A model generated the notes under the pieces. That model had not been told where the DNA came from and made no database searches. It worked only from the letters and a program-made list of their open reading frames with translations. A DNA stretch of 23,171 nt from a virus, in IMG/VR virus record IMGVR_UViG_3300038834_000134, positions 10,482-33,652 of that record; one strand, 5' to 3'. Shown piece after piece: positions 1 through 10,423 of the stretch. Position 1 is the first letter of the stretch; each line of letters starts with the position of its first letter. A program made the translations under genes and the position numbers.

Positions 1-89
1 ACATAAGGTTGATTAAATACCTTATTCTCTTTAGTTAATTTAGCTAATTCAACAAGTGTTGGATTAGAACGAAATTTTAAAGTTGCCAT
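1..89 (-). CDS. Partial hypothetical protein, N-terminal end only
   Basis: Only the first 29 codons are in the window; the gene runs off the left edge. The peptide starts MATLKFRSNPTLVELAKLTK and is lysine-rich and probably helical; I do not recognise it. The ATG at 87-89 is chosen because it lies 12 nt after the conserved leader motif (hairpin plus ACCAACCTC) that also precedes the starts at 1142 and 2213. It is divergent from the plus-strand operon that begins at 236, so it is the first gene of a leftward transcription unit. Its function cannot be stated from this much sequence. Confidence 0.7.
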   Translation of the reverse strand, partial: MATLKFRSNPTLVELAKLTKENKVFNQPY

Positions 90-101
90 TTTTAATAGTT
101 T

Positions 102-123
102 GAGGTTGGTGGGATCTCTCCCA
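102..123 (-). ncRNA. Leader RNA motif copy A (GAGA hairpin plus ACCAACCTC)
   Basis: Reading the minus strand, GGGA-GAGA-TCCC (122 down to 111) forms a 4-bp stem, or 5 bp counting the flanking T-A pair, closed by a GAGA loop. ACCAACCTC follows immediately, then a 12-nt A/T-rich spacer, then the ATG at 89. A -10-like TATATT lies 8 nt upstream of the stem, so the hairpin would be at or near the 5' end of the mRNA. Two more copies occur at 1111-1132 and 2184-2203. The stem bases differ between copies but pairing is kept. The GAG of the loop could also pair with the downstream CTC as a small pseudoknot. Not matched by me to any known RNA family. Confidence 0.6.
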
Positions 124-130
124 TATATTC

Positions 131-176
131 AATATAACTGGTATTTTCCCCAAGTTGCCCTATTAATGTTCGGTAT
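131..176 (-). promoter_or_regulatory. Putative promoter with upstream element for the leftward gene
   Basis: On the minus strand, TATATT (136 to 131) is a 5/6 match to a sigma70 -10. The -35 position 17 bp upstream (159 to 154) reads GGCAAC, a poor match. Just upstream, 176 to 165, is ATACCGAACATT, which recurs at 1056-1067 in the same orientation and at the same distance from the leader hairpin. The weak -35 plus a shared upstream block suggests an activator-dependent promoter. Inferred from spacing only. Confidence 0.45.
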
Positions 177-235
177 CTGTACTGGTGCATACCCTGTTTT
201 TTCCAGGGGTTATCTGATATATATGAAAATAAACC

Positions 236-421
236 ATGAACAAGGAAGTAGCCGAGTATGTAAATGTCTTACTGGCAAACCGACAGTACTTATTAGAAGA
301 AAGAGAAAATGCATCTGATTATAATAAAGACAAAGAACTACAAGAGATGACAGAGAGTGAACAATCACTTATATATAAAGCTCAAAAGGCAATGGATTAT
401 ATAATTGAGGAAAGTAATTGA
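236..421 (+). CDS. Small acidic early protein, unknown
   Basis: 61 aa, beginning MNKEVAEYVNVLLANRQYLL. It is rich in Glu, Lys, Asn and Tyr and predicted mostly helical, with no motif I recognise. It is the first gene of the rightward early operon. The ATG at 236 is the first in frame and follows a CCCTG/CAGGG hairpin (192-208) and an AT-rich stretch, with no Shine-Dalgarno. Its stop overlaps the TTG start of the methyltransferase-like gene by 4 nt (TTGA), so the two are probably translationally coupled. Confidence 0.6.
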   Translation: MNKEVAEYVNVLLANRQYLLEERENASDYNKDKELQEMTESEQSLIYKAQKAMDYIIEESN

Positions 422-1044
422 GAATACTGGTTGCTTGTGAGTATTCGGGTATTGTAAGAGATGCCTTTGCAGCCAAAGGACATGATGCTTGGTCTTGTGA
501 TATTTTAGAAACAGAAGCCCCTGGAAATCATTTGAAAGGCGATGTCTTAAATTTTTTAGACATGAACTGGGATTTAATGGTGGCGCATCCACCCTGTACA
601 CATCTGTCTGTTTCGGGCGCAAGATGGTTTACTGAGGGCAAGAAGCCAATGCATTTAAGAAAGAAAGCACTTGAGTTTGTACAAAGACTTATGGATGCAC
701 CGATAGATCGAATATGTATTGAGAACCCTGTTTCGGTTATTTCTTCCCATATAAGAGAGGCAGACCAGCTTATAAATCCTTACCAGTTTGGCGATATGGA
801 ATACAAAAGGACTTGTTTATGGTTAAAGAATCTACCAAGATTAAAAGACACTGATAATGTACTTGAAGAGACAAAAAAGCTTCCAGAGAAAGAATCCAAG
901 AGGATTTGGTGGCTTGGTAGTGGTAAGGGTAAGGAGCGCAGTAAGTTTTATAAAGGTATAGCAAAAGCGATGGCAGAACAGTGGGGTGATGAGAGTAAAC
1001 TACCCGAACCAATAGAACAGCTAAGTATATTCAGCCTTTTGTAA
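418..1044 (+). CDS. C5-cytosine DNA methyltransferase-like protein
   Basis: 208 aa. The N-terminal VACEYSGIVRDAFAAKGHDA (5-24) looks like the SAM-binding motif I of class I methyltransferases. HPPC at 57-60 is the Pro-Cys motif IV with C60 as candidate nucleophile. IENP at 101-104 matches motif VI. The tail RSKFYKGIAKAMAEQW (174-189) resembles the last conserved block. It is shorter than typical C5 methyltransferases (300-400 aa) and has little room for a target recognition domain, as in many phage versions. No restriction endonuclease is nearby, so self-protection or pyrimidine modification of phage DNA is more likely than a complete restriction system. The TTG start at 418 overlaps the preceding stop and is needed to include motif I; no ATG is available nearby. 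Confidence 0.75.
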   Translation: MRILVACEYSGIVRDAFAAKGHDAWSCDILETEAPGNHLKGDVLNFLDMNWDLMVAHPPCTHLSVSGARWFTEGKKPMHLRKKALEFVQRLMDAPIDRICIENPVSVISSHIREADQLINPYQFGDMEYKRTCLWLKNLPRLKDTDNVLEETKKLPEKESKRIWWLGSGKGKERSKFYKGIAKAMAEQWGDESKLPEPIEQLSIFSLL

Positions 1045-1055
1045 CACCAATGTTA

Positions 1056-1101
1056 ATACCGAACATTGACCCTGTACATACACTGACCATAGATATATTA
1101 T
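1056..1101 (+). promoter_or_regulatory. Putative promoter with upstream element before the 1142 gene
   Basis: ATACCGAACATT (1056-1067) is followed 5 nt later by TGTACA (1073-1078, 4/6 to -35), a 17-bp spacer and TATTAT (1096-1101, 5/6 to -10). The leader hairpin starts 9 nt after the -10. Upstream block, -35 position, -10 and hairpin have the same spacing, to within 1 nt, as the leftward promoter at 131-176. This is the only sizeable gap (97 bp) in the first part of the early operon. Confidence 0.5.
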
Positions 1102-1110
1102 TGATTTACA

Positions 1111-1132
1111 GGGCAGAGATGCCCACAACCTC
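1111..1132 (+). ncRNA. Leader RNA motif copy B (GAGA hairpin plus ACAACCTC)
   Basis: GGGCA-GAGA-TGCCC (1111-1124) makes a 5-bp stem with a GAGA loop; ACAACCTC (1125-1132) follows directly. Nine nt separate the CTC from the ATG at 1142. The same GGG (1111-1113) could instead pair, as TACAGGG (1107-1113), with CCCTGTA at 1070-1076. AGAG (1115-1118) could pair with CTCT (1130-1133). The leader has no Shine-Dalgarno; its place is taken by the ACCTC. Confidence 0.65.
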
Positions 1133-1141
1133 TTAAAACTA

Positions 1142-1495
1142 ATGGCAGAACAAACACTTACAGTTCTCAACCAGGATGAACTGGTCAGTAAACAAGCACA
1201 GCTTTATTGCGATAAGCTTAATCAACTAGCTTTCGATAAAGGACAAGAAAGAGACTTTATCATTATGCAGGGTACAAAGTTTCTTAAAGTAACAAGAAAC
1301 GAGACAGAAGCTTTTGCTTTTATTGATAAAAAAACTGGTGAAGTATATAAACCAAAGAGTTGGAGAAAAGCTGCAAAGGGTGTTAGATATAATCTTTTAG
1401 AAAAAGCAAGTATTGAAAAACTTTTCAGCAATCTAGACTTATATGGTGAACATCTTTACCAATACGCTGTCAACTTTATCAATAAAAAACAATGA
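1142..1495 (+). CDS. Conserved phage hypothetical protein
   Basis: 117 aa. The central part, FIDKKTGEVYKPKSW (60-74) followed by KGVRYNLLE, is a pattern I remember from small conserved proteins of cyanophages and other marine phages; the function is unknown. It is mixed alpha/beta without membrane segments. It is the first gene after an internal promoter and the leader motif at 1111-1132, so its expression is probably set separately from the methyltransferase upstream. The stop overlaps the next start as ATGA. A nucleic-acid-related role is possible given the neighbours but is not shown. Confidence 0.75.
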   Translation: MAEQTLTVLNQDELVSKQAQLYCDKLNQLAFDKGQERDFIIMQGTKFLKVTRNETEAFAFIDKKTGEVYKPKSWRKAAKGVRYNLLEKASIEKLFSNLDLYGEHLYQYAVNFINKKQ

Positions 1496-1674
1496 GAAAA
1501 TATATGACCAAAGCAGAAGCACTTATTACTTTTAGACAACTTTGGAAAATGACCAATTGGTCTAGAAGTGATACCACCGCCAAAAGAGAGATGTGGAACA
1601 ACTACACAGACTCACTTTGTAAAAGTGGTGATATATCACTCAGTCAATACGAAAACTGGGGTCAACCTTTCTAA
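1492..1674 (+). CDS. Conserved small phage protein
   Basis: 60 aa, MRKYMTKAEALITFRQLW at the start and SQYENWGQPF at the end. The pattern (K-E/A-A-L-x-x-F ... W-x-x-Y-T/F-D-x-L-C-K-x-G-x-I ... Q-Y-x-x-W-x-x-P-F) resembles a small helical protein I recall from many phage early regions, with no assigned function. The start overlaps the previous stop (ATGA) and the stop overlaps the next ATG (TAATG), so it sits inside a translationally coupled run. Confidence 0.7.
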   Translation: MRKYMTKAEALITFRQLWKMTNWSRSDTTAKREMWNNYTDSLCKSGDISLSQYENWGQPF

Positions 1675-1820
1675 TGACTAAAAAAGATTACGACGAAGCA
1701 ATGAGTTGGTTAAATGATCGGTATATGTTTGAGCAAGACATGACCAATGAAGTTTACCTTTTACTTCGTAAAACAATAGAAACAACTTACTTAAAATCAA
1801 TTTACAACAAAAAAAAATGA
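1674..1820 (+). CDS. Very small hypothetical protein
   Basis: 48 aa, MTKKDYDEAMSWLNDRYMFE at the start. It is charged and probably helical, with no motif recognised. Support for being real comes from context: the ATG overlaps the previous TAA by one nt (TAATG), the stop overlaps the DUF2958 start (ATGA), and without it there would be an unexplained 142-nt gap in an otherwise gapless operon. Confidence 0.6.
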   Translation: MTKKDYDEAMSWLNDRYMFEQDMTNEVYLLLRKTIETTYLKSIYNKKK

Positions 1821-2143
1821 AACTTTTAACAAAAGAAATTCTAAAAAAACTACCAAAACTCTATTCTTCTGCAGCACATGAAGATACTGAAAAAGAGTTA
1901 ACTTTTCATTTAAAACTATTCTGTCCATGGTCTTTTTGGACTTGGTATATAGCAGAATACGACCCAGAAACTGGCATTGCATTTGGATACACCATTGGTT
2001 TTGAAAACGAATATGGGTCTATTGATGTTAAAGAATTAGAAACAGTTACTGGACCTCTTGGTCTTAAAATTGAAAGAGATATTACCTTTCAATCTATAGG
2101 GCAAAAAGCTTTGATGGAAAAGATAAAAAAGAATGGTCAATAA
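1817..2143 (+). CDS. DUF2958 domain protein
   Basis: 108 aa, about the size of the single-domain family. Diagnostic pieces are MKLLTKEILKKLPKLY (1-16), the Trp-rich LFCPWSFWTWYIAEYDP (34-50), GIAFGYTIGFENEYGSI (53-69) and ELETVTGPLGLKIERD (73-88). DUF2958 proteins are frequent on plasmids, integrative elements and phages; their biochemical role is not established. The gene is coupled to the preceding 48-aa gene by ATGA and ends just before the sigma70-like promoter at 2147-2175. An 11-codon reading frame starting on its stop (2143-2178) runs through that promoter and is probably not a gene. Confidence 0.85.
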   Translation: MKLLTKEILKKLPKLYSSAAHEDTEKELTFHLKLFCPWSFWTWYIAEYDPETGIAFGYTIGFENEYGSIDVKELETVTGPLGLKIERDITFQSIGQKALMEKIKKNGQ

Positions 2144-2146
2144 TGG

Positions 2147-2175
2147 TAGACAAAGGGGAAAATCTAGACTATAAT
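2147..2175 (+). promoter_or_regulatory. Sigma70-type promoter before the 2213 gene
   Basis: TAGACA (2147-2152, 5/6 to TTGACA) and TATAAT (2170-2175, perfect) are separated by 17 bp, the best promoter in the window. The leader hairpin starts 9 nt after the -10, so transcription probably begins at its base. The upstream ATACCGAACATT block of the other two promoters is not present at the expected place; AATGGTCAATAA at 2132-2143 is at most a weak relative. The better core elements fit a promoter that needs no activator. Confidence 0.7.
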
Positions 2176-2183
2176 TGAAGTAA

Positions 2184-2203
2184 GGGCGAGAGCCTACAAC
2201 CTC
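2184..2203 (+). ncRNA. Leader RNA motif copy C (GAGA hairpin plus ACAACCTC)
   Basis: GGGC-GAGA-GCCT (2184-2195) forms a stem with three Watson-Crick pairs and a terminal G-U pair around a GAGA loop. ACAACCTC (2196-2203) follows directly, and 9 nt lie between the CTC and the ATG at 2213, as in copy B. GAG (2188-2190) can pair with CTC (2201-2203). Confidence 0.65.
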
Positions 2204-2212
2204 AAAAAATTC

Positions 2213-2392
2213 ATGAACAACGATTTACAAAGAGAGATAGACGACATCAAGTCTAAACTCCAAGAAGCACAGAATGGTTACGCTTACTGCTGTGCGACTG
2301 CCGATTGGACAGACTTAAGTAAGCACAAAAAAAATGTTTCTAAGTACACTAAGATGCTTTCTGCACTACTAAGACAGAGGGCAAGAGTATGA
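2213..2392 (+). CDS. Small hypothetical protein, leader-motif controlled
   Basis: 59 aa, MNNDLQREIDDIKSKLQEAQ at the start, then an aromatic/Cys patch NGYAYCCATADWTDLSKHKK and a basic helical end (ALLRQRARV). The first 20 residues have a coiled-coil-like heptad pattern. It is the first gene after the strong promoter at 2147-2175 and leader copy C. The stop overlaps the next ATG (ATGA). No family recognised. Confidence 0.65.
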   Translation: MNNDLQREIDDIKSKLQEAQNGYAYCCATADWTDLSKHKKNVSKYTKMLSALLRQRARV

Positions 2393-2523
2393 AACATTTA
2401 TTCTTGTATCTAGCGGTGGGCAGTATTCTGTTTACCGCTTTTGATTCGTCTCTTAAAGACATGACCAGAATCGACTGCAATGCTGGCATTGAGCTTGCTT
2501 GCAAAGAGGTGGCCAAGTGGTAA
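2389..2523 (+). CDS. Small exported or membrane-anchored protein
   Basis: 44 aa. MKHLFLYLAVGSILFTAFDS is a short basic start followed by a hydrophobic stretch (4-18), i.e. a signal peptide or single membrane anchor, followed by about 25 polar residues with two Cys (30 and 38). It overlaps the upstream gene by ATGA. There is no lipobox in the usual place, so a lipoprotein is unlikely. Function unknown; a small inner-membrane anchored protein made early could act in superinfection exclusion, but nothing shows this. Confidence 0.55.
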   Translation: MKHLFLYLAVGSILFTAFDSSLKDMTRIDCNAGIELACKEVAKW

Positions 2524-2528
2524 GAGAT

Positions 2529-2780
2529 ATGCAAAAGATTCTCGAAACTTTACGAGAACATGAAAAAAAGCAACAGACCAATAAGGTTGAACTTGTACAA
2601 GGTTGCTTAGAACTTACAAAAATTGTACAAGAACTTGGCGAAAAAACAGGTATTACTTGTAATGCTTTAGATGAAAAAACAAACATCATCAAAGACTTTA
2701 TCGTCAAGCAAGCAGAAAAAATTACCATGCTTGAACTTCGTATTGCAAACCTAGAAGAAAAACTTAATGCAAAAAACTAA
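2529..2780 (+). CDS. Coiled-coil hypothetical protein
   Basis: 83 aa from the ATG at 2529, 5 nt after the preceding stop. The frame stays open upstream to a TTG at 2499 and a GTG at 2517, but the ATG gives the usual tight spacing. Nearly all helical: MQKILETLREHEKKQQ at the start, and a leucine/isoleucine heptad run at the end (KITMLELRIANLEEKL, about 65-80), typical of a coiled coil. It overlaps the exonuclease start by 14 nt, so the two are likely co-translated. It may be a recombination accessory or scaffold, inferred from position only. Confidence 0.65.
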   Translation: MQKILETLREHEKKQQTNKVELVQGCLELTKIVQELGEKTGITCNALDEKTNIIKDFIVKQAEKITMLELRIANLEEKLNAKN

Positions 2781-3567
2781 AAAAGAATATATACCAGCAG
2801 AGGTATATCATGCAGACCCAGCTTATTCTGCATCGGATTGTAAGCTGTATAAAAAGACTTGTCCTAAAGTTTTCTATGAATCTAAGTATGGCGAACAAAA
2901 GTTAGAACACGAACCAGCTTTGAAAAAAGCTTTTCGTACTGGCGAACTTTGTCATGCTTTTACATTAGAACCTGACCGTGCAAAAACCGCATATGGTGTC
3001 TGTCTTAACAGATCAACAAAAGCTGGTAAGGCACAGGCAGAGGAGATGGCAGCAAAAGGTATAGAACCTATTACTTCTGCTGAATATGAACTTGCATCTA
3101 ATGTTGCTAATGCTGTATGGGAACACCCATTGGCAAAGAAACTTCTTGCCAAAGGTCATGCAGAACAAAGCTTTTGGCGTGATGACAAAGAAACTGGTCT
3201 TACTTGCAAGGCAAGATGTGACTTTATAAATGGCGATACAATTATCGACCTTAAGACAACTGGCGAGGGTAACAGCCATCCCGATAAATTTATTAAATCG
3301 GTTGCTTCATACCTTTACCATTTACAAGCTGCTCATTACTTAGAAGTAATTGGTGCAAAGCGATTTGTATTTATAGCAGTTGAAAAAGTCTACCCATATG
3401 CCATAAGCATTACCGAGCTAGACGAAGAAGCACTTGCCGAAGGCAAACGTCTTAGACAAGCTGCCTTAAAACAAATTTCTAAATGCCATACAGATGCTTA
3501 TTGGCATGGGTATGCAGAAGAAATCCAAACACTCAGCCTACCAAGTTGGGCTTACAAAACAAACTAA
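2767..3567 (+). CDS. PD-(D/E)XK exonuclease, RecE/exonuclease VIII-like
   Basis: 266 aa. Expected to resect DNA ends 5' to 3' for phage recombination. The order of motifs fits the PDDEXK-like family found in RecE/ExoVIII-type phage nucleases: YHADPAYSASDCKLY (14-28), FRTGELCHAFTLEP (56-69) with H63, a Glu in HAEQSFW (131-137), CDF with D152, the catalytic IIDLKTT (159-165) with D161 and K163, and YLYHLQAAHY (182-191) matching the QxxxY motif. The next gene is an ERF annealing protein, the standard partner. The ATG at 2767 overlaps the upstream coiled-coil gene by 14 nt. Confidence 0.88.
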   Translation: MQKTKKEYIPAEVYHADPAYSASDCKLYKKTCPKVFYESKYGEQKLEHEPALKKAFRTGELCHAFTLEPDRAKTAYGVCLNRSTKAGKAQAEEMAAKGIEPITSAEYELASNVANAVWEHPLAKKLLAKGHAEQSFWRDDKETGLTCKARCDFINGDTIIDLKTTGEGNSHPDKFIKSVASYLYHLQAAHYLEVIGAKRFVFIAVEKVYPYAISITELDEEALAEGKRLRQAALKQISKCHTDAYWHGYAEEIQTLSLPSWAYKTN

Positions 3568-3571
3568 AAAA

Positions 3572-4249
3572 ATGTCAGAAACAAACCCACACGCTGCACT
3601 TGCAGTAGCTTTACAAAAAGCACAAGCAGAATTTCCATCAATGGGTAAGACCAAACAAGTTGGTGTAGGTTCTTATGGTTACAGCTATCTACCTTTGGAA
3701 CAAATGCTGTCTTTGGTTACACCTGTTCTTCTTAAGAATGGTCTATGTTTAACACAGGGCTTTGGCTGTAGTGCTACAGGCGAAACACTTATAGTTACAA
3801 GACTTATTCATAAAGATGGTGGTGTTATTAAAAGCGAACTGCCAATATTTTTATCTGAAAGAGATATGGCAAACCCTAAGAAAAACCAAACCCATAACTG
3901 GGGTGGTGCAGTTACATATCAAAGAAGATACAGCATTAAGTTGATCTTAGGTCTTGAGACAGATATGGACTTTAATATGGAAGAGGAAGAAAAAGTTGAA
4001 GATAAACAAATTAATAAAGGCGAAGTTATAGAGACTTTACGAGAACAAGTAAAGGAAATTTCTAATAATTCTGATACAGAGAAAACTTACCAGCTTGCCA
4101 AAGGTGCGATAAATACAGCCAAGTCTGTAGAACAGTTAACAGATTTTAAGAAAAACATTGCAATTCGTTTTGCAAAGGGTAAACTAACTCTTACACAGAA
4201 AGAGGAATTGGAAACTCTTATTGTTAACAAGAAAAAGGTGCTTGAATAA
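3572..4249 (+). CDS. erf: ERF family single-strand DNA annealing protein
   Basis: 225 aa from the ATG at 3572, 4 nt after the nuclease stop; the open frame continues further upstream inside the nuclease gene but has no reason to be used. The N-terminal two thirds (HAALAVALQKAQAEFPSMGK, YSYLPLEQMLSLVTPVLLKN, then GGAVTYQRRYSIKLILGL) carry the ERF signature, in particular the A-x-T-Y-x-x-R-Y-x-x-x-x-x-L-G block at about residues 115-130. An acidic linker (MEEEEKVEDK) separates a helical C-terminal domain. ERF proteins anneal complementary single strands; with the nuclease it forms a two-component recombination system. Confidence 0.88.
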   Translation: MSETNPHAALAVALQKAQAEFPSMGKTKQVGVGSYGYSYLPLEQMLSLVTPVLLKNGLCLTQGFGCSATGETLIVTRLIHKDGGVIKSELPIFLSERDMANPKKNQTHNWGGAVTYQRRYSIKLILGLETDMDFNMEEEEKVEDKQINKGEVIETLREQVKEISNNSDTEKTYQLAKGAINTAKSVEQLTDFKKNIAIRFAKGKLTLTQKEELETLIVNKKKVLE

Positions 4250-4486
4250 ATGGACCAAGACCAGCCTTATCTATCAACCAAAGACCTCGCCGAACGATAC
4301 GGGATTACTCAAAGAACCATAAAAAAATGGCGAACAAGTACAAGAAGAGGTAAACAAGAAGGTCCCGAGTGGTATACAGTTCCACGAACTGCAACCGCTT
4401 TGGGTTCTCCTCTAATCAGATACCCACTTCCACAGGTTCTTGCCTGGGAAGAAACAAATTCAATCATTCCAATTAAATCTTTCTAA
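4250..4486 (+). CDS. Excisionase/MerR-like helix-turn-helix protein
   Basis: 78 aa. LSTKDLAERYGITQRTIKKW (8-27) is a clear helix-turn-helix of the HTH_17/excisionase type, followed by an Arg-rich stretch (RTSTRRGK) and a wing-like segment ending in IRYPLPQVLAWEE, the usual R-Y-x-x-x-x-V-x-x-W end of such domains. It starts immediately after the erf stop. It could be an operon regulator, for example of the leader-motif promoters, or a recombination directionality factor. No integrase is visible, so a regulator is preferred. The odd feature is the 20-residue insertion between recognition helix and wing. Confidence 0.75.
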   Translation: MDQDQPYLSTKDLAERYGITQRTIKKWRTSTRRGKQEGPEWYTVPRTATALGSPLIRYPLPQVLAWEETNSIIPIKSF

Positions 4487-4488
4487 TT

Positions 4489-4773
4489 ATGGCCTACGAA
4501 AATTTATTTACAGGGCGTTTAGTCCTTTTTAATAATTCACAGAAAAAATCTGAAAAGTCCCCTGACCTTGGTGGCAACATTGAGTTTAGTCTGCAAGATG
4601 CCATGGCATTGGCAGAATGGATTACAGGACAAGAAGGCGAGGACAATTATGCTGGCGAAAAGGTAGTCAAAGTACCTGTAAGTGCTTGGCATAGAGAATC
4701 TAAAAATGGTACCTCTTTTGTATCGGGTTCTATGTCAGTAGCAAAAACCTCTACAGAGGAAATACCTTTCTAA
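4489..4773 (+). CDS. Possible single-stranded DNA-binding protein (DUF736-like)
   Basis: 94 aa. FTGRLVLFNNSQKKSEKSPDLGG (7-29) and the later VSAWHRESKNGTSFVSGSMS (64-83) resemble the G-x-L-F-x-N-x-x-K-x-x-x-x-P-D-x-x-G and x-x-A-W-x-x-x-x-x-x-G-x-x-x-x-S-x-S-x blocks of DUF736-type small beta proteins. The intervening segment is more helical than usual. The acidic end TEEIPF resembles the acidic tail tip of SSB proteins (DDDIPF), which binds partners. Position two genes after erf supports an SSB-like role. The family assignment is inference from pattern memory. Confidence 0.55.
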   Translation: MAYENLFTGRLVLFNNSQKKSEKSPDLGGNIEFSLQDAMALAEWITGQEGEDNYAGEKVVKVPVSAWHRESKNGTSFVSGSMSVAKTSTEEIPF

Positions 4774-4775
4774 CT

Positions 4776-5135
4776 ATGGCAAAAGTACTAAAAAAAGTTA
4801 CTGACCCAAAACTACCTCTTAATGTCGCAATATTTCAAGACCATTTAGCACTTGGTCTTGAGTGTTTCGACCTTAACTGGTTTGATTTTAGGCCACATAC
4901 TTGCAGCAACAAAGAATATGGTGATGGCCTTCTTTTTTCTCAGTTAGATGATAGCCATAAAGAATGTTGCCAAGCAGAAAATTCTTTAATTGTTTCTAAT
5001 GAGGGTTTGCATTTGCCGAACAAAAAAATTATGCCTTTCACTAACGAACAACCCCCAACAAAGATGGCCTTGCTGGTCTTATCGGCAATGGTCACTGAAC
5101 AACCTTTACACTTTGAATGTCCCGAATGCGACTAG
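4776..5135 (+). CDS. Hypothetical protein with C-terminal CPxC
   Basis: 119 aa. No family recognised. It contains a Cys/His-rich middle (HTCSNKEYGD, HKECCQAENS) and ends HFECPECD, so metal binding is plausible with ligands spread over the chain. The last 19 nt overlap the next gene in another frame. Two nt separate it from the upstream possible SSB gene. No membrane segment or signal peptide. Confidence 0.65.
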   Translation: MAKVLKKVTDPKLPLNVAIFQDHLALGLECFDLNWFDFRPHTCSNKEYGDGLLFSQLDDSHKECCQAENSLIVSNEGLHLPNKKIMPFTNEQPPTKMALLVLSAMVTEQPLHFECPECD

Positions 5136-5476
5136 ATTTTACAAACAAAGCACTTGAAGAATGGATAAAACTTTGTCCTTTTCCAATAACAGTACAACAA
5201 GCGGTAACACAGCCAAAAGCTTGTAAACACATAACAATAGATGTAACTATTGAAGCAAGCAAGACAAAGCCTAATCCAGACTTTGTTGCATCAGATCAAC
5301 AACAGTTTCTTGAGTTGAGATATTACAACATTGATAAAAAACTCAAAGACCTTACAGCACAAAGATTTAAAGAGGATAATCCTCTTATACAAAGAAAAAT
5401 ATCAAAACAGATTCATGCTCTGTTTGATGAAAAATTTGAAATCGAAAAACAGTTAGATGTTCAAGAAAAATCGTAG
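5117..5476 (+). CDS. Hypothetical protein, helical C-terminus
   Basis: 119 aa from the ATG at 5117; a second in-frame ATG at 5126 is an equally possible start that would cut the overlap with the preceding gene from 19 to 10 nt. The N-terminal half looks beta-rich (KHITIDVTIEAS), and the C-terminal half is a long charged helix (LRYYNIDKKLKDLTAQRFKE onward, ending EKFEIEKQLDVQEKS) suggestive of a coiled coil. It overlaps the next gene by 20 nt. Function unknown. Confidence 0.6.
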   Translation: MSRMRLDFTNKALEEWIKLCPFPITVQQAVTQPKACKHITIDVTIEASKTKPNPDFVASDQQQFLELRYYNIDKKLKDLTAQRFKEDNPLIQRKISKQIHALFDEKFEIEKQLDVQEKS

Positions 5477-5840
5477 AAAACTTGTGGTCGATTATGCCGA
5501 CTTGATGGGTAAAACAGTTAAACGTACCTTTGATGGTGCGAAGTTTAAATGTGTAACCATTCAATATGCTAAAAATACAGAAATTTTGTATGTAAGCATC
5601 TTGCGATGTTATGACTTTGACCATATTGACAATGCTACTGAATATGCCAATGCAGTGGCAAACAAAGCTATTTTTATTGATTGGGATAACTTTTTCTTAA
5701 ATTATGAATTTTCTGAAAAAGATTGCGAAACAATCTCGGGTAACAACTTTTCAAACAATTTGATAAAGGCCAACTGGAACCAAATAAAAAAAGTATTTGT
5801 AAAAGATTTTAAAGAAGGCGCCCATGGGAAAAAGGATTGA
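5457..5840 (+). CDS. Hypothetical early protein
   Basis: 127 aa, with a basic N-terminus (MFKKNRRKLVVDYADL) and then an acidic, aromatic-rich body (ILRCYDFDHIDNATEY, AIFIDWDNFFLNYEF). No motif recognised. The first ATG overlaps the upstream gene by 20 nt, and the end overlaps the zinc-binding gene by 17 nt. Asn/Asp/Phe-rich composition fits the AT-rich genome. Confidence 0.6.
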   Translation: MFKKNRRKLVVDYADLMGKTVKRTFDGAKFKCVTIQYAKNTEILYVSILRCYDFDHIDNATEYANAVANKAIFIDWDNFFLNYEFSEKDCETISGNNFSNNLIKANWNQIKKVFVKDFKEGAHGKKD

Positions 5841-6117
5841 TTTAAAAGACTTACAACAGTACATTGATGATAAGGGATTTATCGTTCAAAACCACTGCTG
5901 GAAATGTCAAAAGATCAGTTACAGAAATGAAAAAGATGCCAAAACAGTTTCAGCAGATATGTTCAAACTTGGTAAAGGCCATACCTATGCATATGCCTGT
6001 CCTAAAGGTAATGGCTGGCATCTAACTTCTAAAAAACCAAGAAGTGCAAATTGCCCCAGGCAAAAAAAACAATGCAAAGCAACACGACAAAGTAAACCTG
6101 AAAGGAGGAGACAATGA
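5824..6117 (+). CDS. Small Zn-binding protein (CxxC ... C ... GWHLT)
   Basis: 97 aa. HCWKCQKISYRNEKDAK (24-40) and YAYACPKGNGWHLTS (55-69) match a small zinc-binding pattern seen in phage and actinobacterial proteins: C-x-x-C, a tyrosine-rich turn with an A/K helix, then Y-x-C-P-x-G-x-x-W-H-L-T. Ligand candidates are C25, C28, C59 and H66. The C-terminal 25 residues are very basic (KKPRSANCPRQKKQCKATRQ), fitting nucleic acid binding. Its stop overlaps the next start (ATGA). Role unknown. Confidence 0.65.
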   Translation: MGKRIDLKDLQQYIDDKGFIVQNHCWKCQKISYRNEKDAKTVSADMFKLGKGHTYAYACPKGNGWHLTSKKPRSANCPRQKKQCKATRQSKPERRRQ

Positions 6118-6392
6118 GTGATTCTTTGAAACTTAGAAGATTGAAGGAAATGCGTTTGGCAAACTTAGAGAAACAGTTGCTTGACGATACTTTAAAAGGC
6201 TATGACCATTATGTTTTTATAAACGAAAGGGGTAAAGCACAGGTTGTAACAGAACAAGGTCGTTGGGTTGCTGAACATATACGAACAGCAATTTTAAAAT
6301 TTAATTATCAAGTTGATGAAACTAAGAAAAAACTTGTTAAAGACTTTTCAGATGCAGAAATACAAGCTTATATAGATAAATACGATTCATAG
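6114..6392 (+). CDS. Hypothetical early protein with strong RBS
   Basis: 92 aa, MSDSLKLRRLKEMRLANLEK at the start; helical N-terminus, short beta segment (HYVFINERGKAQVVTEQGRW), helical C-terminus. No family recognised. AGGAGG at 6103-6108 lies 5 nt before the ATG, the clearest Shine-Dalgarno in the window, inside the end of the preceding gene. This suggests higher translation than its neighbours, most of which rely on overlap coupling. Confidence 0.65.
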   Translation: MSDSLKLRRLKEMRLANLEKQLLDDTLKGYDHYVFINERGKAQVVTEQGRWVAEHIRTAILKFNYQVDETKKKLVKDFSDAEIQAYIDKYDS

Positions 6393-6395
6393 ACT

Positions 6396-6515
6396 ATGCA
6401 AACAAGAGATAAAATTATTGCTGCCAAAAAGCGTATTAACGAACTTGAAACTCTTATAAGATATTGGTCAATGAAAAAAGTTATAGAAAAACAAAGACTT
6501 TACCAAATCACTTAA
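6396..6515 (+). CDS. Very small hypothetical protein at the end of the early operon
   Basis: 39 aa, MQTRDKIIAAKKRINELETL at the start, basic and helical (coiled-coil-like). It starts 3 nt after the previous stop, which supports it. Its last 8 nt overlap the end of the oppositely oriented gene 6508-6783, so the early operon ends here in a tail-to-tail overlap without an obvious terminator. Confidence 0.5.
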   Translation: MQTRDKIIAAKKRINELETLIRYWSMKKVIEKQRLYQIT

Positions 6516-6783
6516 ATAATCTTTTTTTTATTTTATTTATTATATTAGGTTTTTTTCTTATTTCTTTAACTACAAGATTTGCTTCAAGTTCAACTAATCT
6601 ACCAAGTAAAGATGCAAGAAAAACATCCTGGTGCATTTGATGTCGCACAAGATGTGTACAGTACCTTTTTATATTGTCATAATCTTCACTTTGCATAATT
6701 TCTCGACAACGCATTTCAACAGATAATTGCAACTCGGGTGGGGCTGGTTCTATCTCTATGTTGAGAAATTTTTTTACGTTCAT
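6508..6783 (-). CDS. Hypothetical protein, cyanophage-like
   Basis: 91 aa. The core PPELQLSVEMRCREIMQSE (14-32), then CTHLVRHQMHQDVFLASLLG and RLVELEANLV, is an all-helical pattern of a kind I recall from small cyanobacterial and cyanophage proteins (a helix with V-R-x-x-x-x-Q followed by R-x-x-E-L-E). The C-terminus is basic (KIKKRLFK). It is the second gene of a two-gene minus-strand unit whose upstream member ends in an ATGA overlap with its start, and it faces the end of the early operon. Function unknown. Confidence 0.65.
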   Translation of the reverse strand: MNVKKFLNIEIEPAPPELQLSVEMRCREIMQSEDYDNIKRYCTHLVRHQMHQDVFLASLLGRLVELEANLVVKEIRKKPNIINKIKKRLFK

Positions 6784-6941
6784 TTAACTGGAAATAATTT
6801 TTCTTCAATCATTTTTACAATGGCATCATCAACATCATTGTCACTTTTCTCTGCCAAATCTTTCAAAAGACTTACAGCAGCTTTGCGTAATGATTCAGAT
6901 TTACCAAACTTAATAAACAGACCGATTAAAAATTTAGACAT
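6780..6941 (-). CDS. Small hypothetical protein, first of a two-gene unit
   Basis: 53 aa, MSKFLIGLFIKFGKSESLRK at the start and ending KMIEEKLFPVK. The first 13 residues are amphipathic/hydrophobic, the rest helical and acidic. Its stop overlaps the start of the 91-aa gene by 4 nt (ATGA), which is the main support. It reads leftwards, divergent from the 7042 gene. No function can be assigned; the N-terminal amphipathic helix might bind membrane. Confidence 0.6.
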   Translation of the reverse strand: MSKFLIGLFIKFGKSESLRKAAVSLLKDLAEKSDNDVDDAIVKMIEEKLFPVK

Positions 6942-6991
6942 AATTTTGTGTGTTACTTTCCAAACATAACAGTATTTGCTAAATTTGGCAC

Positions 6992-7038
6992 ATACTACCC
7001 TAAAGCGGTGGTCATCCTGTCTTCATTTTGGGTAGTAT
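6992..7038 (+). repeat. Perfect 9-bp inverted repeat before the 7042 gene
   Basis: ATACTACCC (6992-7000) and GGGTAGTAT (7030-7038) pair perfectly around a 29-nt loop and end 3 nt before the ATG at 7042. As RNA this would bury the translation start region; as DNA it could be a two-site operator between the divergent genes at 6941 and 7042. I see no convincing sigma70 pair in this 100-bp intergenic region. Confidence 0.5.
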
Positions 7039-7041
7039 TTT

Positions 7042-7299
7042 ATGGCAGACGAACAAGAAGAAAAAGAAGGTACCGATTGGGGCGAAATCTTTGGTCATGC
7101 TGTCCGATTTATGATTCTTTGCTGGTCTTTAGCAATGATGACTCTCGGATATATGGACAAAATTCGTAATGATGGTGCGTTTTTGGCAGGCCTTACCTCA
7201 GGTGTCTTAGGCAGTTATGGTATAAGTGTAAACAAAAAGAAACCTACAAACGCTGCTAAGATAGTGGATAACAAGGACACTAACGTAGGAATTAAATGA
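7042..7299 (+). CDS. Small membrane protein, holin candidate
   Basis: 85 aa. An acidic N-terminus (MADEQEEKEGTDWGE) is followed by two hydrophobic stretches: about 18-37 (HAVRFMILCWSLAMMTLGYM) and 46-60 (FLAGLTSGVLGSYGI), then a basic polar tail. Two short membrane spans, small size and charged tail would fit a holin, and no other lysis gene is visible, but no family match is recalled. It overlaps the next gene (signal-peptide protein) by 4 nt, so it belongs to the cassette at 7042-8816. Confidence 0.7.
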   Translation: MADEQEEKEGTDWGEIFGHAVRFMILCWSLAMMTLGYMDKIRNDGAFLAGLTSGVLGSYGISVNKKKPTNAAKIVDNKDTNVGIK

Positions 7300-7811
7300 A
7301 AAAACTATTTGCATTGCTTTTATTTTTTCCATCTGCTGCCTTTGCAGATATTAAACAGGAATTTGTTACCTCTGCGCAGATAACTGTTGATATGCCATAT
7401 GTGGTTACGAATAAAGTTGGTACAACATATTCTTTAAGTGGTAATAATATTACACCATCTGTAACTGTAGGAGATACAACAACATCTGGAAAGATTGGTG
7501 GAATAAATGTTGGCAGTTTATCAAATGGTGTACCAGCAATGATTCAGACAGATACAGCCATAACAACTGCTGGTTCATCTTTCTCAAAAACAGAATCGGT
7601 AATTATGGGTGACGCCACACCTTCTGCGGTAACACCTAGTTCGGGTATTGCATCCTTACCAGTTTTAGGCGGACAAACAACAATAGGAAGCGGAGGCACA
7701 GCCGGATCGCTTGCGCTCACTTCTTTATCTAGCGGAGTTCACACTTGCACAGCAGGCGGTAGCGGCACAAGTTGTATAGGCTCTACAAAAGTTACTATAA
7801 CCATTGATTAA
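7296..7811 (+). CDS. Secreted cyanophage-type protein 1
   Basis: 171 aa. MKKLFALLLFFPSAAFA is a textbook signal peptide with cleavage expected after AFA (17). The mature part is Gly/Ser/Thr-rich and beta-like: ITVDMPYVVTNKVGTTYSLS (29-48), a GDATPS segment, and a C-terminal GGTAGSLALTSL followed by two Cys about ten residues apart. I recall similar proteins in marine cyanophage genomes in the same order with the next two genes; their function is not known to me. Export across the host inner membrane is implied. It overlaps the next gene by 8 nt. Confidence 0.8.
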   Translation: MKKLFALLLFFPSAAFADIKQEFVTSAQITVDMPYVVTNKVGTTYSLSGNNITPSVTVGDTTTSGKIGGINVGSLSNGVPAMIQTDTAITTAGSSFSKTESVIMGDATPSAVTPSSGIASLPVLGGQTTIGSGGTAGSLALTSLSSGVHTCTAGGSGTSCIGSTKVTITID

Positions 7812-8235
7812 ATTTTGGCTGTTAGTTATAATAATATATCCGCTAAGAACCCTTGCTACACCTGTGGTTCCACAATTTCGCTCAGGTTCGCAAACAACCT
7901 CTTCAACAAGTCAAAGTGTTATAAATGAAACGATTACATCATACCAATACAGAACTGGTTACTCATATGCAGCAAGTGGACATAATATCGAAGCTGAAAC
8001 AGGATATATCAACCCTACTGCTACGACACAAAGCACCCAAACAGTTGGAGGAGTAAATTTTAGTTGGACAAGTCCAAATCTCGAAGCAATCCCACGCTGG
8101 AAAATCGCAACAGATGGTGCAGCATTTTCGATACAAGAAACTCTCATAACACCAGGCCTAGATACAGTTACAAACATACAAAGAACCATAACAACTTCAA
8201 CAACTTCAGAAACCACAAGTACCTTTGGTCAATAA
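7804..8235 (+). CDS. Secreted cyanophage-type protein 2
   Basis: 143 aa from a TTG at 7804. The TTG is chosen because it alone gives a signal peptide (MIKFWLLVIIIYPLRTLA) and overlaps the upstream stop; the first in-frame ATG (about 7925) would remove it. The mature part is Ser/Thr-rich, with PVVPQFRSGSQTTS near the start and IQRTITTSTTSETTSTFGQ at the end, plus a GAAFSIQETLITPG segment. This matches the style of a protein I remember beside the other two in cyanophages. No cysteines, so no disulfides or lipid anchor. Confidence 0.75.
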   Translation: MIKFWLLVIIIYPLRTLATPVVPQFRSGSQTTSSTSQSVINETITSYQYRTGYSYAASGHNIEAETGYINPTATTQSTQTVGGVNFSWTSPNLEAIPRWKIATDGAAFSIQETLITPGLDTVTNIQRTITTSTTSETTSTFGQ

Positions 8236-8816
8236 TATTTTTACTTTTACCTATAAAGCCTTTAAATGCAAATACAACGGTTAGTAGTCCACAAAGTCAA
8301 AGTACAGGGGTAGTTAACAACAATGCGACTATGATAACGCCTTCAAGCCTTCCACAGAACCGCTACAGTCAAGGAATTGTTTGTACATCGCCAAGTCTTA
8401 CAATTACACCATATCTTACAGATGCTTGGTCATTTAACAGGCCTATTGAAACTGTAACCAGACAAGCAATTTATGATGAAGACACTGGCGAGATTAAATA
8501 TTACCAAGAGACACCACGTTTTGAAAAAGATAACTACAACTTAAATTATGGAATTAGTATGCAATTTAATATACCGCTAGGAAATGGTGGCAAACTCTGT
8601 AAAGAAGCAGCAAAGGTAAATATAGAAGCACAAAAACTTCTTATAAAAAAAACACAATATGAAATCAGCTTATTTAGGTTAGAGCAATGTGCCAAGCAAG
8701 CAAAACTTGGGGTAAGCTTTGTTGCTGGTAGCCCAAGTGCAGTTACTTGCCAAGATATTGTTATAACAGTACCGCCAAACCAAGTATTACCGCACAAACA
8801 TATCATCAAGAAGTAG
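8232..8816 (+). CDS. Secreted cyanophage-type protein 3, start codon unclear
   Basis: About 193 aa. A hydrophobic segment (IIFLLLPIKPLNA) ends in a good signal-peptidase site, and the mature protein begins NTTVSSPQSQSTG. Conserved-looking parts are NRYSQGIVCTSPSLTITPYL, ETPRFEKDNYNLNYGISMQF and KLCKEAAKVNI; at least four Cys are present. No ATG, GTG or TTG exists near the signal peptide. The only nearby candidates are ATA at 8232 or 8235, overlapping the upstream stop. A TTG at 8064 would add 56 residues before the signal peptide and is not credible. Either a rare start codon, reinitiation or a sequence error is involved. The stop lies just inside the convergent hairpin. Confidence 0.7.
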   Translation: MIFLLLPIKPLNANTTVSSPQSQSTGVVNNNATMITPSSLPQNRYSQGIVCTSPSLTITPYLTDAWSFNRPIETVTRQAIYDEDTGEIKYYQETPRFEKDNYNLNYGISMQFNIPLGNGGKLCKEAAKVNIEAQKLLIKKTQYEISLFRLEQCAKQAKLGVSFVAGSPSAVTCQDIVITVPPNQVLPHKHIIKK

Positions 8817-8844
8817 ACGAGCAACGGGTATTACACTCATCTAC
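8813..8844. terminator. Hairpin at the convergent gene junction, possible bidirectional terminator
   Basis: GTAGACGAG (8813-8821) pairs with CTCATCTAC (8836-8844) with one C/A mismatch, around a 14-nt loop. It lies in the 34-bp gap between the plus-strand stop at 8816 and the minus-strand stop at 8851. On the plus strand a T-rich stretch follows, but only after several bases; on the minus strand there is no good T-run. Position is stronger evidence than structure. Confidence 0.45.
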
Positions 8845-8850
8845 GGATAT

Positions 8851-9480
8851 TTATTTTACCTTATTTTTTTTCTTAGTCAATTTAGTAATAATCTGTTTCA
8901 CGAGAGGTTTTACAATATTAATAAGAATCGGAGTAGAAGCGGCAACCACAGCAATAGCAGCAGCATTAGTAATAGCAGGGACATTAGGTATGTACTGCTC
9001 GGTAAAGCTGGTGTCCTCATACAAAGTAATGCATTTACTTTTATCTTCGTTTAATTTATGTCCGACAACACGTTCTAGTCTTTTATCGTTACGAAAATCC
9101 CCAACACGTTGATCTTTTTCTGGATCTGGACATTTTATAAAAAACTCTGTTTCTTTCGCAACAGGCTTTTGTGTAACTGGTGGTTTTGTTTCAGGTATTT
9201 CAGGCTCACTAGATTGTATCGGTGTATCTTCTGACATTATCAAATTGTTTGGCTGATAATTCATTGGATTAAAACTTGGAAATGGCGCATCACAAACAGT
9301 AAATACACCATTAGGGTCATCCAGTAATAAATTTCTATTGCCAGTATTTTTTATATCTCTATGTTGATATGTACAGCCAGGAACATTTATTGTTAAAGGT
9401 ATTATGGTTACTGGTTTTGTAAAATCAAGTATTGGTTGTATTTGTACGTCGGGTATATTTATATCAGGTATTCCCATCAA
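8851..9480 (-). CDS. Cyanophage-type membrane-anchored hypothetical protein
   Basis: 209 aa. It begins MMGIPDINIPDVQIQP with a repetitive I-P-x-hydrophobic pattern, then VPGCTYQHRDIKNTG, DPNGVFTVCDAPFPSFNPMN, a Pro/Glu-rich linker (SSEPEIPETKPPVTQKPVAK), DQRVGDFRNDKRLERVVGHK, and a C-terminal hydrophobic span (about 170-190, ITNAAAIAVVAASTPILINI) followed by a strongly basic tail (KLTKKKNKVK). I recall proteins of this pattern in marine Synechococcus and Prochlorococcus phages, function unknown. It is the last gene of the leftward operon and is coupled to the 70-aa gene upstream by ATGA. Confidence 0.75.
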   Translation of the reverse strand: MMGIPDINIPDVQIQPILDFTKPVTIIPLTINVPGCTYQHRDIKNTGNRNLLLDDPNGVFTVCDAPFPSFNPMNYQPNNLIMSEDTPIQSSEPEIPETKPPVTQKPVAKETEFFIKCPDPEKDQRVGDFRNDKRLERVVGHKLNEDKSKCITLYEDTSFTEQYIPNVPAITNAAAIAVVAASTPILINIVKPLVKQIITKLTKKKNKVK

Positions 9481-9689
9481 AGAGGCATTGCAGGGAAAGT
9501 TTCTTTTGGCATTTGCAATGGTATTTCTTCCATCATTTTTTCTTTTAAATCACCCATAAGTTTGTTTTTTAAATCTCTTTCAAACTCGGGGCTTTGCATA
9601 TAGCGAATAGCTACAAAACCAAAGGCAGCCATTGACCCTGATAACAAAAGAGACAATAATGAGGCTACTTGACAAATTTTATTAAACAT
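9477..9689 (-). CDS. Small membrane protein with Pro-rich C-terminus
   Basis: 70 aa. One hydrophobic span, about 6-28 (CQVASLLSLLLSGSMAAFGF), then a charged helix and the end EEIPLQMPKETFPAMPL. The shape (one membrane span, charged helix, Pro/Met-rich end) resembles small cyanophage proteins I recall next to homologues of the 209-aa gene. The ATG at 9689 is back to back with the plus-strand ATG at 9690 (CATATG), so it has no promoter of its own right there and is probably reached by transcription from the right. Confidence 0.65.
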   Translation of the reverse strand: MFNKICQVASLLSLLLSGSMAAFGFVAIRYMQSPEFERDLKNKLMGDLKEKMMEEIPLQMPKETFPAMPL

Positions 9690-9821
9690 ATGTGGAAAGA
9701 AGCGTTTATAAAGGCATTAGCACCAATAAGTTTAATGGTGCTGTTTTTGATTGTTGGTTTGACTCCACTATATCTGATAGGTGGAATGATGACTAGACAA
9801 ATGCACGAAAAAATTAATTAA
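9690..9821 (+). CDS. Possible small plus-strand membrane protein inside the leftward operon
   Basis: 43 aa, MWKEAFIKALAPISLMVLFL at the start, one clear membrane span (12-31) and a polar end. Codon structure and hydrophobicity look protein-coding, and it fills the 124-bp gap between two minus-strand genes. It points against the surrounding operon and overlaps the end of the coiled-coil gene by 8 nt. No promoter or Shine-Dalgarno stands out. It may be a real antisense-oriented small gene or chance. Confidence 0.45.
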   Translation: MWKEAFIKALAPISLMVLFLIVGLTPLYLIGGMMTRQMHEKIN

Positions 9822-10017
9822 CTATTTCTGTTTTTGTTGTTATTTCTTCTTGGCCTTGTAATTCTTTTAGTCTTTCACTACAAGAAAAAGCTTTCATTTT
9901 TAAAGCATCACGAGCTATAACAAGTTCTTTGATTTTTTCTTGAATTTTATTAAATTCATCGACTGCGACTTGCATTTCAAGTTTGAGTTGGTCTATACGT
10001 TTTTGTGATTTTGTCAT
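9814..10017 (-). CDS. Small coiled-coil protein
   Basis: 67 aa from the ATG at 10017; the open frame extends upstream into the neighbouring gene, but this ATG is 2 nt from that gene's stop. MTKSQKRIDQLKLEMQVAVD at the start, then a run of heptads (FNKIQEKIKELVIARDALKM) and a Thr/Glu end. It is almost entirely coiled coil. Located just after tail-fibre region genes; function unknown. Confidence 0.65.
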   Translation of the reverse strand: MTKSQKRIDQLKLEMQVAVDEFNKIQEKIKELVIARDALKMKAFSCSERLKELQGQEEITTKTEIVN

Positions 10018-10019
10018 AA

Positions 10020-10361
10020 TTACTCGGTGTCCTGTGCAATAAGTTTTGTTCTCCAAGCTGCTTTTACTGTATCTGTCCAAAGAAGATTACACAATGCTTT
10101 CACTTCATCAGGTATAGCTGTAACACCATCAGGCTCTTTGTCCAAAGGATTGTTAACTAAATCTTGTGCATCATCAGCAGGGGTTACTCCATCAGCCTTG
10201 TAACCACCTTTAAGTCTTCCGCAGTCAAGAGAGTATCTTTCATATTTTTCTGAAATTTGTACACCATCTTCTTTAATAACAATTCTTTTCCTTACTTGAA
10301 TAATTTTATATTCAGTAACAATTTCAGTTTTGTCATAATGAATTTCTTTTGTGAGTGCCAT
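10020..10361 (-). CDS. Tail-fibre-adjacent hypothetical protein
   Basis: 113 aa, MALTKEIHYDKTEIVTEYKI at the start, then beta-rich VRKRIVIKEDGVQISEKYER and a helical second half (PDEVKALCNLLWTDTVKAAW). The start pattern (M-A-L-T-K-E-x ... D-K-x-E-I/V-V-x-x-Y-K-x-I/V-Q-V-R) is familiar from marine phage genes next to tail fibres. The function is not known; a fibre accessory or chaperone role is only a positional guess. A GGAG about 13 nt upstream of the ATG may serve as RBS. Confidence 0.7.
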   Translation of the reverse strand: MALTKEIHYDKTEIVTEYKIIQVRKRIVIKEDGVQISEKYERYSLDCGRLKGGYKADGVTPADDAQDLVNNPLDKEPDGVTAIPDEVKALCNLLWTDTVKAAWRTKLIAQDTE

Positions 10362-10397
10362 TAGGATTAATCTCCGATTAAAACAGGTTTAGGCTTA

Positions 10398-10423
10398 GTT
10401 TATAGACGTAGCTCGGTCTAAAC
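10398..10423 (-). other. Hairpin over the tail-fibre stop codon
   Basis: GTTTA(TA)GAC (10398-10407) pairs with GTCTAAAC (10416-10423), an 8-bp stem with a 2-nt bulge and 8-nt loop, overlapping the fibre gene stop and filling the 56-bp gap before the 10361 gene. No T-run follows on the minus strand, so it may be a weak terminator or an mRNA processing or stability element. Confidence 0.35.

Follow-up and report, generated by a model that had tools for sequence, protein, structure and literature searches.

A GAGA-loop RNA hairpin at the presumed 5' ends of probably early transcripts in contigs related to cyanosiphoviruses

Introduction

Of the cyanosiphoviruses related to those infecting Prochlorococcus and Synechococcus, little is known beyond their sequences. 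How such viruses seize host gene expression is a question for which a recognizable mark on their early messages offers a handle. The window analyzed here is a stretch of 23,171 nucleotides, bases 10482-33652 of a 33,652-base (33.7-kb) virus record, and three of its gene starts carry the same short hairpin with a GAGA loop. What is this hairpin, and what might it do? DNA and protein comparisons relate the record to MED4-117-type cyanosiphoviruses (MED4-117, MED4-184/P-HS2, S-H1 and KBS-S-2A).

Three leaders with one architecture

An earlier note on this DNA had described three leaders of shared architecture, and all three are present, as are the genes that they precede:

136-131, minus: leader A, -10-like hexamer TATATT, 8 nt ahead of the hairpin
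122-111, minus: leader A, hairpin GGGA-GAGA-TCCC (covariance model, 27.6 bits)
110-102, minus: leader A, unpaired segment ACCAACCTC, followed by 12 nt and the ATG
89-87, minus: leader A, ATG
1..89, minus: start of the leftward gene that follows leader A, beginning MATLKFRSNPTLVELAK
418-1044: gene for a DNA methyltransferase (phrog_757), flanked by the divergent leaders A and B
1096-1101, plus: leader B, -10-like hexamer TATTAT, 9 nt ahead of the hairpin
1111-1124, plus: leader B, hairpin GGGCA-GAGA-TGCCC (covariance model, 23.4 bits)
1125-1132, plus: leader B, unpaired segment ACAACCTC, followed by 9 nt and the ATG at 1142
1142..1495, plus: gene behind leader B, 117 aa, DUF7717 (PF24835) / phrog_818
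2147-2175, plus: leader C, sigma-70-type promoter TAGACA-17-TATAAT, 11/12 consensus matches
2170-2175, plus: leader C, -10 hexamer TATAAT, 8 nt ahead of the hairpin
2184-2195, plus: leader C, hairpin GGGC-GAGA-GCCT with one G-U pair (covariance model, 25.2 bits)
2196-2203, plus: leader C, unpaired segment ACAACCTC, followed by 9 nt and the ATG at 2213
2213..2392, plus: gene behind leader C, 59 aa, whose relatives keep the leader

The stem of leader A extends to 5 bp once the flanking T-A pair is counted, and the leader B hairpin has a folding energy of -9.2 kcal/mol (z -2.3). The leader C promoter is the best sigma-70-like promoter in positions 1-10500 of the window; in a stretch of a 56-kb relative, the best such promoter likewise bears a GAGA leader. 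The pattern GAGAN{1,5}CNMCAACCTC has 3 matches in the window, where 0.01 would be expected, and 3 in the whole 33,652-base record (0 in the reversed control). By this search the window's three leaders are the sole copies in the record, which extends the earlier statement that the window showed no further copy.

The gene behind leader A runs on into L005, where its protein begins MATLKF, and the relative found in L017, of which 127 aa were translated, has a DUF3085 match; the proposal that the regulon takes in a leftward gene is supported. The 59-aa protein behind leader C had no match in Pfam or PHROG, and no relatives of the leader B protein were found when it was used as a query against viral_contigs. 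The methyltransferase gene between leaders A and B is probably cargo, since a close relative (93%) occurs only in G006 and one at 50% in G024.

Several other features surround these starts. A 23-nt inverted repeat (78%; 165-187 and 1045-1067) brackets the genes of 236-1044. Its right arm, close upstream of promoter B, contains AATGTT-N7-AACATT, which may be an operator, and immediately to the right of this arm lies TACCGAACATTGACCCTGTACAT, found only in this virus record. A conserved GGTAGNCAANNGGGGAA-like stretch, perhaps a regulator site, overlaps the -35 and spacer of leaders A and C (about 2143-2165) and of their relatives in one clade.

The motif in related viral contigs

To place the leaders in a wider context, relatives were gathered through the exonuclease-VIII gene (2767-3567), which yielded 80 related contigs with 43-94% protein identity. 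An unbiased scan, whose sole requirements were a -10-like hexamer, then a stem of 4 bp or more closed by 4-5 loop bases, and finally an ORF opening with ATG, returned 81 distinct hairpins, whose loops were GAGA in 55 cases, GAAGA in 4 and GATGA in 1; the next commonest loop occurred 3 times. Within about 1.02 Mb of related loci, 60/65 GAGA hairpins of at least 4 bp precede an ATG ORF, the contrary of the random intragenic placement that had been named as a test, and 47 of these 60 have a good -10 upstream. Sixteen other tetraloops occur behind a -10 0 or 1 times each in the same loci. Two stem-free patterns picked up further members in GC-rich contigs, some of which match Synechococcus phage S-H1 at 80% identity along part of the contig. 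Among the matches listed for these patterns, full-stem sites precede ORFs in 25/27 and 13/13 cases, and stemless sites resemble chance. A first strict DNA pattern gave a single match, which was intragenic and was discarded.

Altogether, the related viral contigs hold 103 distinct sites with one architecture, although these unique sequences share kinship and are not independent events: a host-type -10, a 4-12 bp hairpin with a GAGA (or GA-A/T-GA) loop, a G-poor unpaired leader, and an ATG. Each record carries about 3-6 copies, clustered in one short region on both strands and surrounding genes for recombination and replication in the manner of a lambda-like early region; the structural gene blocks and late operons of the same records carry none. 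Tandem units 260-400 bp apart each have their own GAGA leader. The proteins behind the leader number 97 distinct sequences in 41 unrelated families, so the leader belongs to the transcript and not to a single gene. Gene families with the same product retain the hairpin even where their stems differ.

Searches outside this group were negative. No match at gathering score was found in Rfam 15, including PhotoRC-II, manA and wcaG, and the sole product of a permissive Rfam search was an SraG match attributable to chance (E 8.2), at another place in the region. For the version found in the window's clade, 257 Gb of bacterial and archaeal genomes contained 38 pattern matches, including one in a Prochlorococcus contig, and none had a stem of at least 3 bp. 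Covariance-model scans found no member in S-LBS1, P-SS2, S-CBS4, S-SKS1, P-SSP7, MED4-117, MED4-184, S-CBS1, KBS-S-2A, S-H1 or S-CBS3. S-CBS2 does contain a scoring site (GU936714, 34676-34699, GGAGGGA-GAGA-TCCCTCC-TTTTTT), which was rejected as a terminator with six T directly before gp047. From their relatives, we infer that the host of the motif-bearing viruses is cyanobacterial.

A different hairpin stands at the corresponding gene start of MED4-117 (L088, 7103-7150) and MED4-184 (L087, 7120-7165). It has the loop TAAGTAC followed by six T, lies right behind a CATAAT -10, and precedes a gene starting MEQTLTL; it is terminator-like and sits at the presumed transcript start.

Stem pairing, loop and strand

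The stem varies widely while the loop does not. Stems include GGGC/GCCC, GGGA/TCCC, GGCA/TGCC, GCCC/GGGC, GGGG/CCCC, GGCG/CGCC, GCGG/CCGC, CCGC/GCGG, GCCG/CGGC, GCCA/TGGC and GAAGC/GCTTC, as well as 10-12 bp forms. Among 29 dissimilar copies, all 4 pairs vary on both sides and double-changed cells number 42 against 13 after shuffling, in a table built from sites selected for pairing.

Three independent counts, pairing-free, hairpin-free and based on wobbles, give the same picture. With no stem requirement, at least 4 bp are formed at 40/73 GAGA sites and at 62/2349 controls (65 control 4-mer samples). When all 12 hairpin bases were left free, paired GAGA hairpins made up 11/14 and 12/12 of the pattern matches. 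Finally, where three of the four pairs are Watson-Crick, the remaining one is G-U 22 times and A-C 2 times, which indicates that it is the coding-strand RNA that is under selection. The earlier suggestion of selection on RNA structure is supported: the stems covary, and pairing is kept while bases change. Hairpin, stem covariation, loop invariance, strand, -10 spacing, gene turnover and restriction to viral contigs were all computed, and in structure and as a family we have hardly any doubt that the GAGA leader is a real, apparently undescribed RNA element.

Position and leader anatomy

The element is anchored to the presumed transcript start and not to the start codon, because its spacing to the -10 is fixed and its spacing to the ATG is not. 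Over the 103 sites the distance from the -10 to the loop is 12.7 +/- 1.5 nt regardless of stem length, and that from the loop to the ATG is 24 +/- 4.8 nt (range 18-35). Stems begin 8-10 nt after the -10, about where transcription is expected to start; this fixed spacing supports the placement at presumed transcript starts made for the window's three copies.

Downstream of the hairpin, folding leaves the remaining leader unpaired, so that each leader holds one hairpin of 12-16 nt. Between stem and ATG the G content is 7.4%, compared with 17.6% ahead of other ORFs, and Shine-Dalgarno-like 4-mers occur in 12/103 GAGA leaders against 42/197. The AACCTC that had been described as part of the architecture is present in the window, but family-wide it is one clade's version only; elsewhere the segment is ACAACCCC, ACCACACACA, GTACCTTG or CTTCGCT. 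Two pairing partners were considered and dropped on such grounds: the Yfr1/Yfr2 sRNAs, prompted by CCUC/CACAC leader segments, since these segments differ between clades, and the 16S tail, since CAACC is not kept in other clades. One leader is peculiar: in L235 (2605-2650) a hairpin resembling an intrinsic terminator (CCGGCAAGACGCCGG TTTTT) stands between the GAGA leader (2609), which it follows directly, and the ATG; no other leader showed this arrangement.

A proposed role: a 5'-terminal hairpin read through its loop

Since the stem is free, the loop fixed and the position at the transcript end fixed, the data point to a 5'-terminal structure recognized via its loop. The reading that we favor, tentatively, is that of a module at the mRNA end through which early messages stay intact and translatable, and which is read by a factor probably of host origin. 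What we infer in it is the transcription start, the early timing, the host, the binding factor and protection as the output. The hairpin would stand at the very 5' end of probably early transcripts made by the host RNA polymerase in a cyanosiphovirus group. The stem would need only to pair, and the GAGA loop, of the GNRA type, would be read sequence-specifically by a putative factor. With the stem near the presumed transcription start, the mRNA 5' end would be nearly paired, and the hairpin, bare or protein-bound, could shield it from end-dependent decay (RppH/RNase E). The unstructured, G-poor leader would then admit ribosomes, and the small early gene behind it would be well expressed.

The idea of a protein reader is suggested by the GA[AT]GA variants, which carry one extra base between loop positions 2 and 3. 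An equivalent insertion occurs in the P22 boxB GACAA, which folds GNRA-like with its extra base touching the N peptide (PMC12550061). The putative factor is more likely host- than phage-encoded, because no phage gene is present in all motif-bearing contigs and absent from their motif-free relatives; this argument is weakened by the incompleteness of several contigs and by the ease with which small ARM proteins escape notice.

Protection of the 5' end has precedent. RppH and RNase E require single-stranded 5' ends, and an added 5' hairpin stabilizes mRNA (PMC3997798). In cyanobacteria RNase E is without its C-terminal half, and RNase E increases as the podovirus P-SSP7 infects Prochlorococcus MED4 (PMC9692554). 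Stems that start 8-10 nt behind the -10 could leave 1-3 bases unpaired at the 5' end, and these might still admit RppH. Moreover, protection alone does not explain the invariant loop, as GAAA, GCAA or UUCG should suffice. The lack of any copy in the late operons also counts against this reading. It is conceivable, though we would not press it, that the leaders represent a kind of phage RNA signal that has not been described before: a hairpin of minimal size at the 5' terminus, which a host factor reads solely via its GAGA loop and which marks every early promoter for mRNA survival, translation or polymerase processivity, regardless of the gene behind.

The GAGA leader predicts transcription starts and defines an early regulon in unannotated contigs, and the hairpin provides a 16-nt bait for capturing the putative host factor. 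If a cyanobacterial protein does read the loop, this would point to a host RNA-binding activity that has so far gone undescribed and would offer a tool for building expression vectors for cyanobacteria.

Alternative explanations

We regard a boxB- or put-like antitermination signal, in which the hairpin, while still nascent, recruits a factor or contacts RNA polymerase itself and makes early transcription terminator-resistant, as unlikely. The leaders do lie at early promoters that point both ways, as do lambda nutL/nutR and HK022 putL, their loop is of the GNRA type with the P22-like insertion (PMC12550061), and the L235 leader at 2609 directly precedes a terminator-like hairpin. Yet no boxA-like box is common to them and, among contigs of which several are partial, no N-like gene tracks the motif. 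Terminator-like sites are not enriched in positions 1-10500 of the window (4 against 6.2 expected), each closely spaced tandem unit has its own copy, and put is a far larger structure.

A translational operator or enhancer, with a protein on the GAGA hairpin or the ribosome itself setting translation of the early regulon, is likewise improbable in our judgment. An invariant loop on a free stem is what protein-bound mRNA operators such as that of T4 gene 43 display (PMC3014915), and the scarcity of G and of Shine-Dalgarno-like 4-mers fits this idea. It is opposed by the spacing, which is fixed to the -10 and varies to the ATG, by the sharing of one leader among 41 unrelated gene families, and by gene presence/absence, which revealed no common phage regulator.

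The earlier note had also offered a pseudoknot switch in which the loop GAG pairs with the downstream CTC, and this we consider highly improbable. CTC does occur in 42/103 leaders against a shuffled mean of 24, but this excess is the AACCTC conserved in one clade, and the loop pairing is not conserved: 61/103 leaders lack CTC, with CCC or CAC instead in others, sister leaders with the same loop have CCC or ACCACACACA in its place, and a GNRA loop gives no linker for such a helix. A DNA operator, for which adjacency to promoters and the GGTAGNCAANNGGGGAA-like stretch upstream in one clade might speak, is already refuted for the hairpin itself, as stem bases vary freely with pairing kept and wobbles are G-U on the coding strand only, and with 0.01 copies expected chance resemblance is equally negligible.

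Comparison with known systems

The GAGA leader shares features with several known systems. Lambdoid nut sites (boxB of lambda, P22 and phi21) likewise place a short GNRA-type hairpin in early phage leaders in both directions, and the GNRA fold of boxB is matched by the GAGA or GA[AT]GA loop at 103 sites, as predicted from sequence. In the GAGA leaders, however, the stem is unconstrained even within a genome and the hairpin starts at the presumed transcript end. Beside the hairpin no boxA is shared among the 103 sites, where the downstream segment is clade-specific and nothing upstream within the transcript is common.

HK022 putL, just behind PL and with its first pairs within a few bases of +1 (PMC9378689), likewise gives an early phage transcript a structured 5' end, but put comprises about 70 nt and two stem-loops whereas the GAGA leader is one hairpin of 12-16 nt. 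The T4 gene 43 mRNA operator is also a conserved-loop hairpin upstream of a start codon; it is autogenous, serves one gene and lies about 40 bases upstream of the ATG, whereas GAGA leaders precede dozens of genes. PhotoRC-II, manA and wcaG are leader RNAs of cyanophages (PMC2864571), but they belong to T4-like or other marine phages, stand before photosynthesis or metabolic genes, and have no Rfam match here.

In layout, 5'-terminal stabilizing hairpins, as in bla with an added hairpin, likewise combine a 5'-end hairpin with an open leader; the T7 phi10 leader is built in the same way. Such hairpins start near +1, and the distance of 12.7 +/- 1.5 nt from -10 to loop would put the GAGA hairpin near a predicted +1. 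Known stabilizing hairpins have no set loop sequence, whereas in the GAGA leaders the loop is invariant over dozens of stems.
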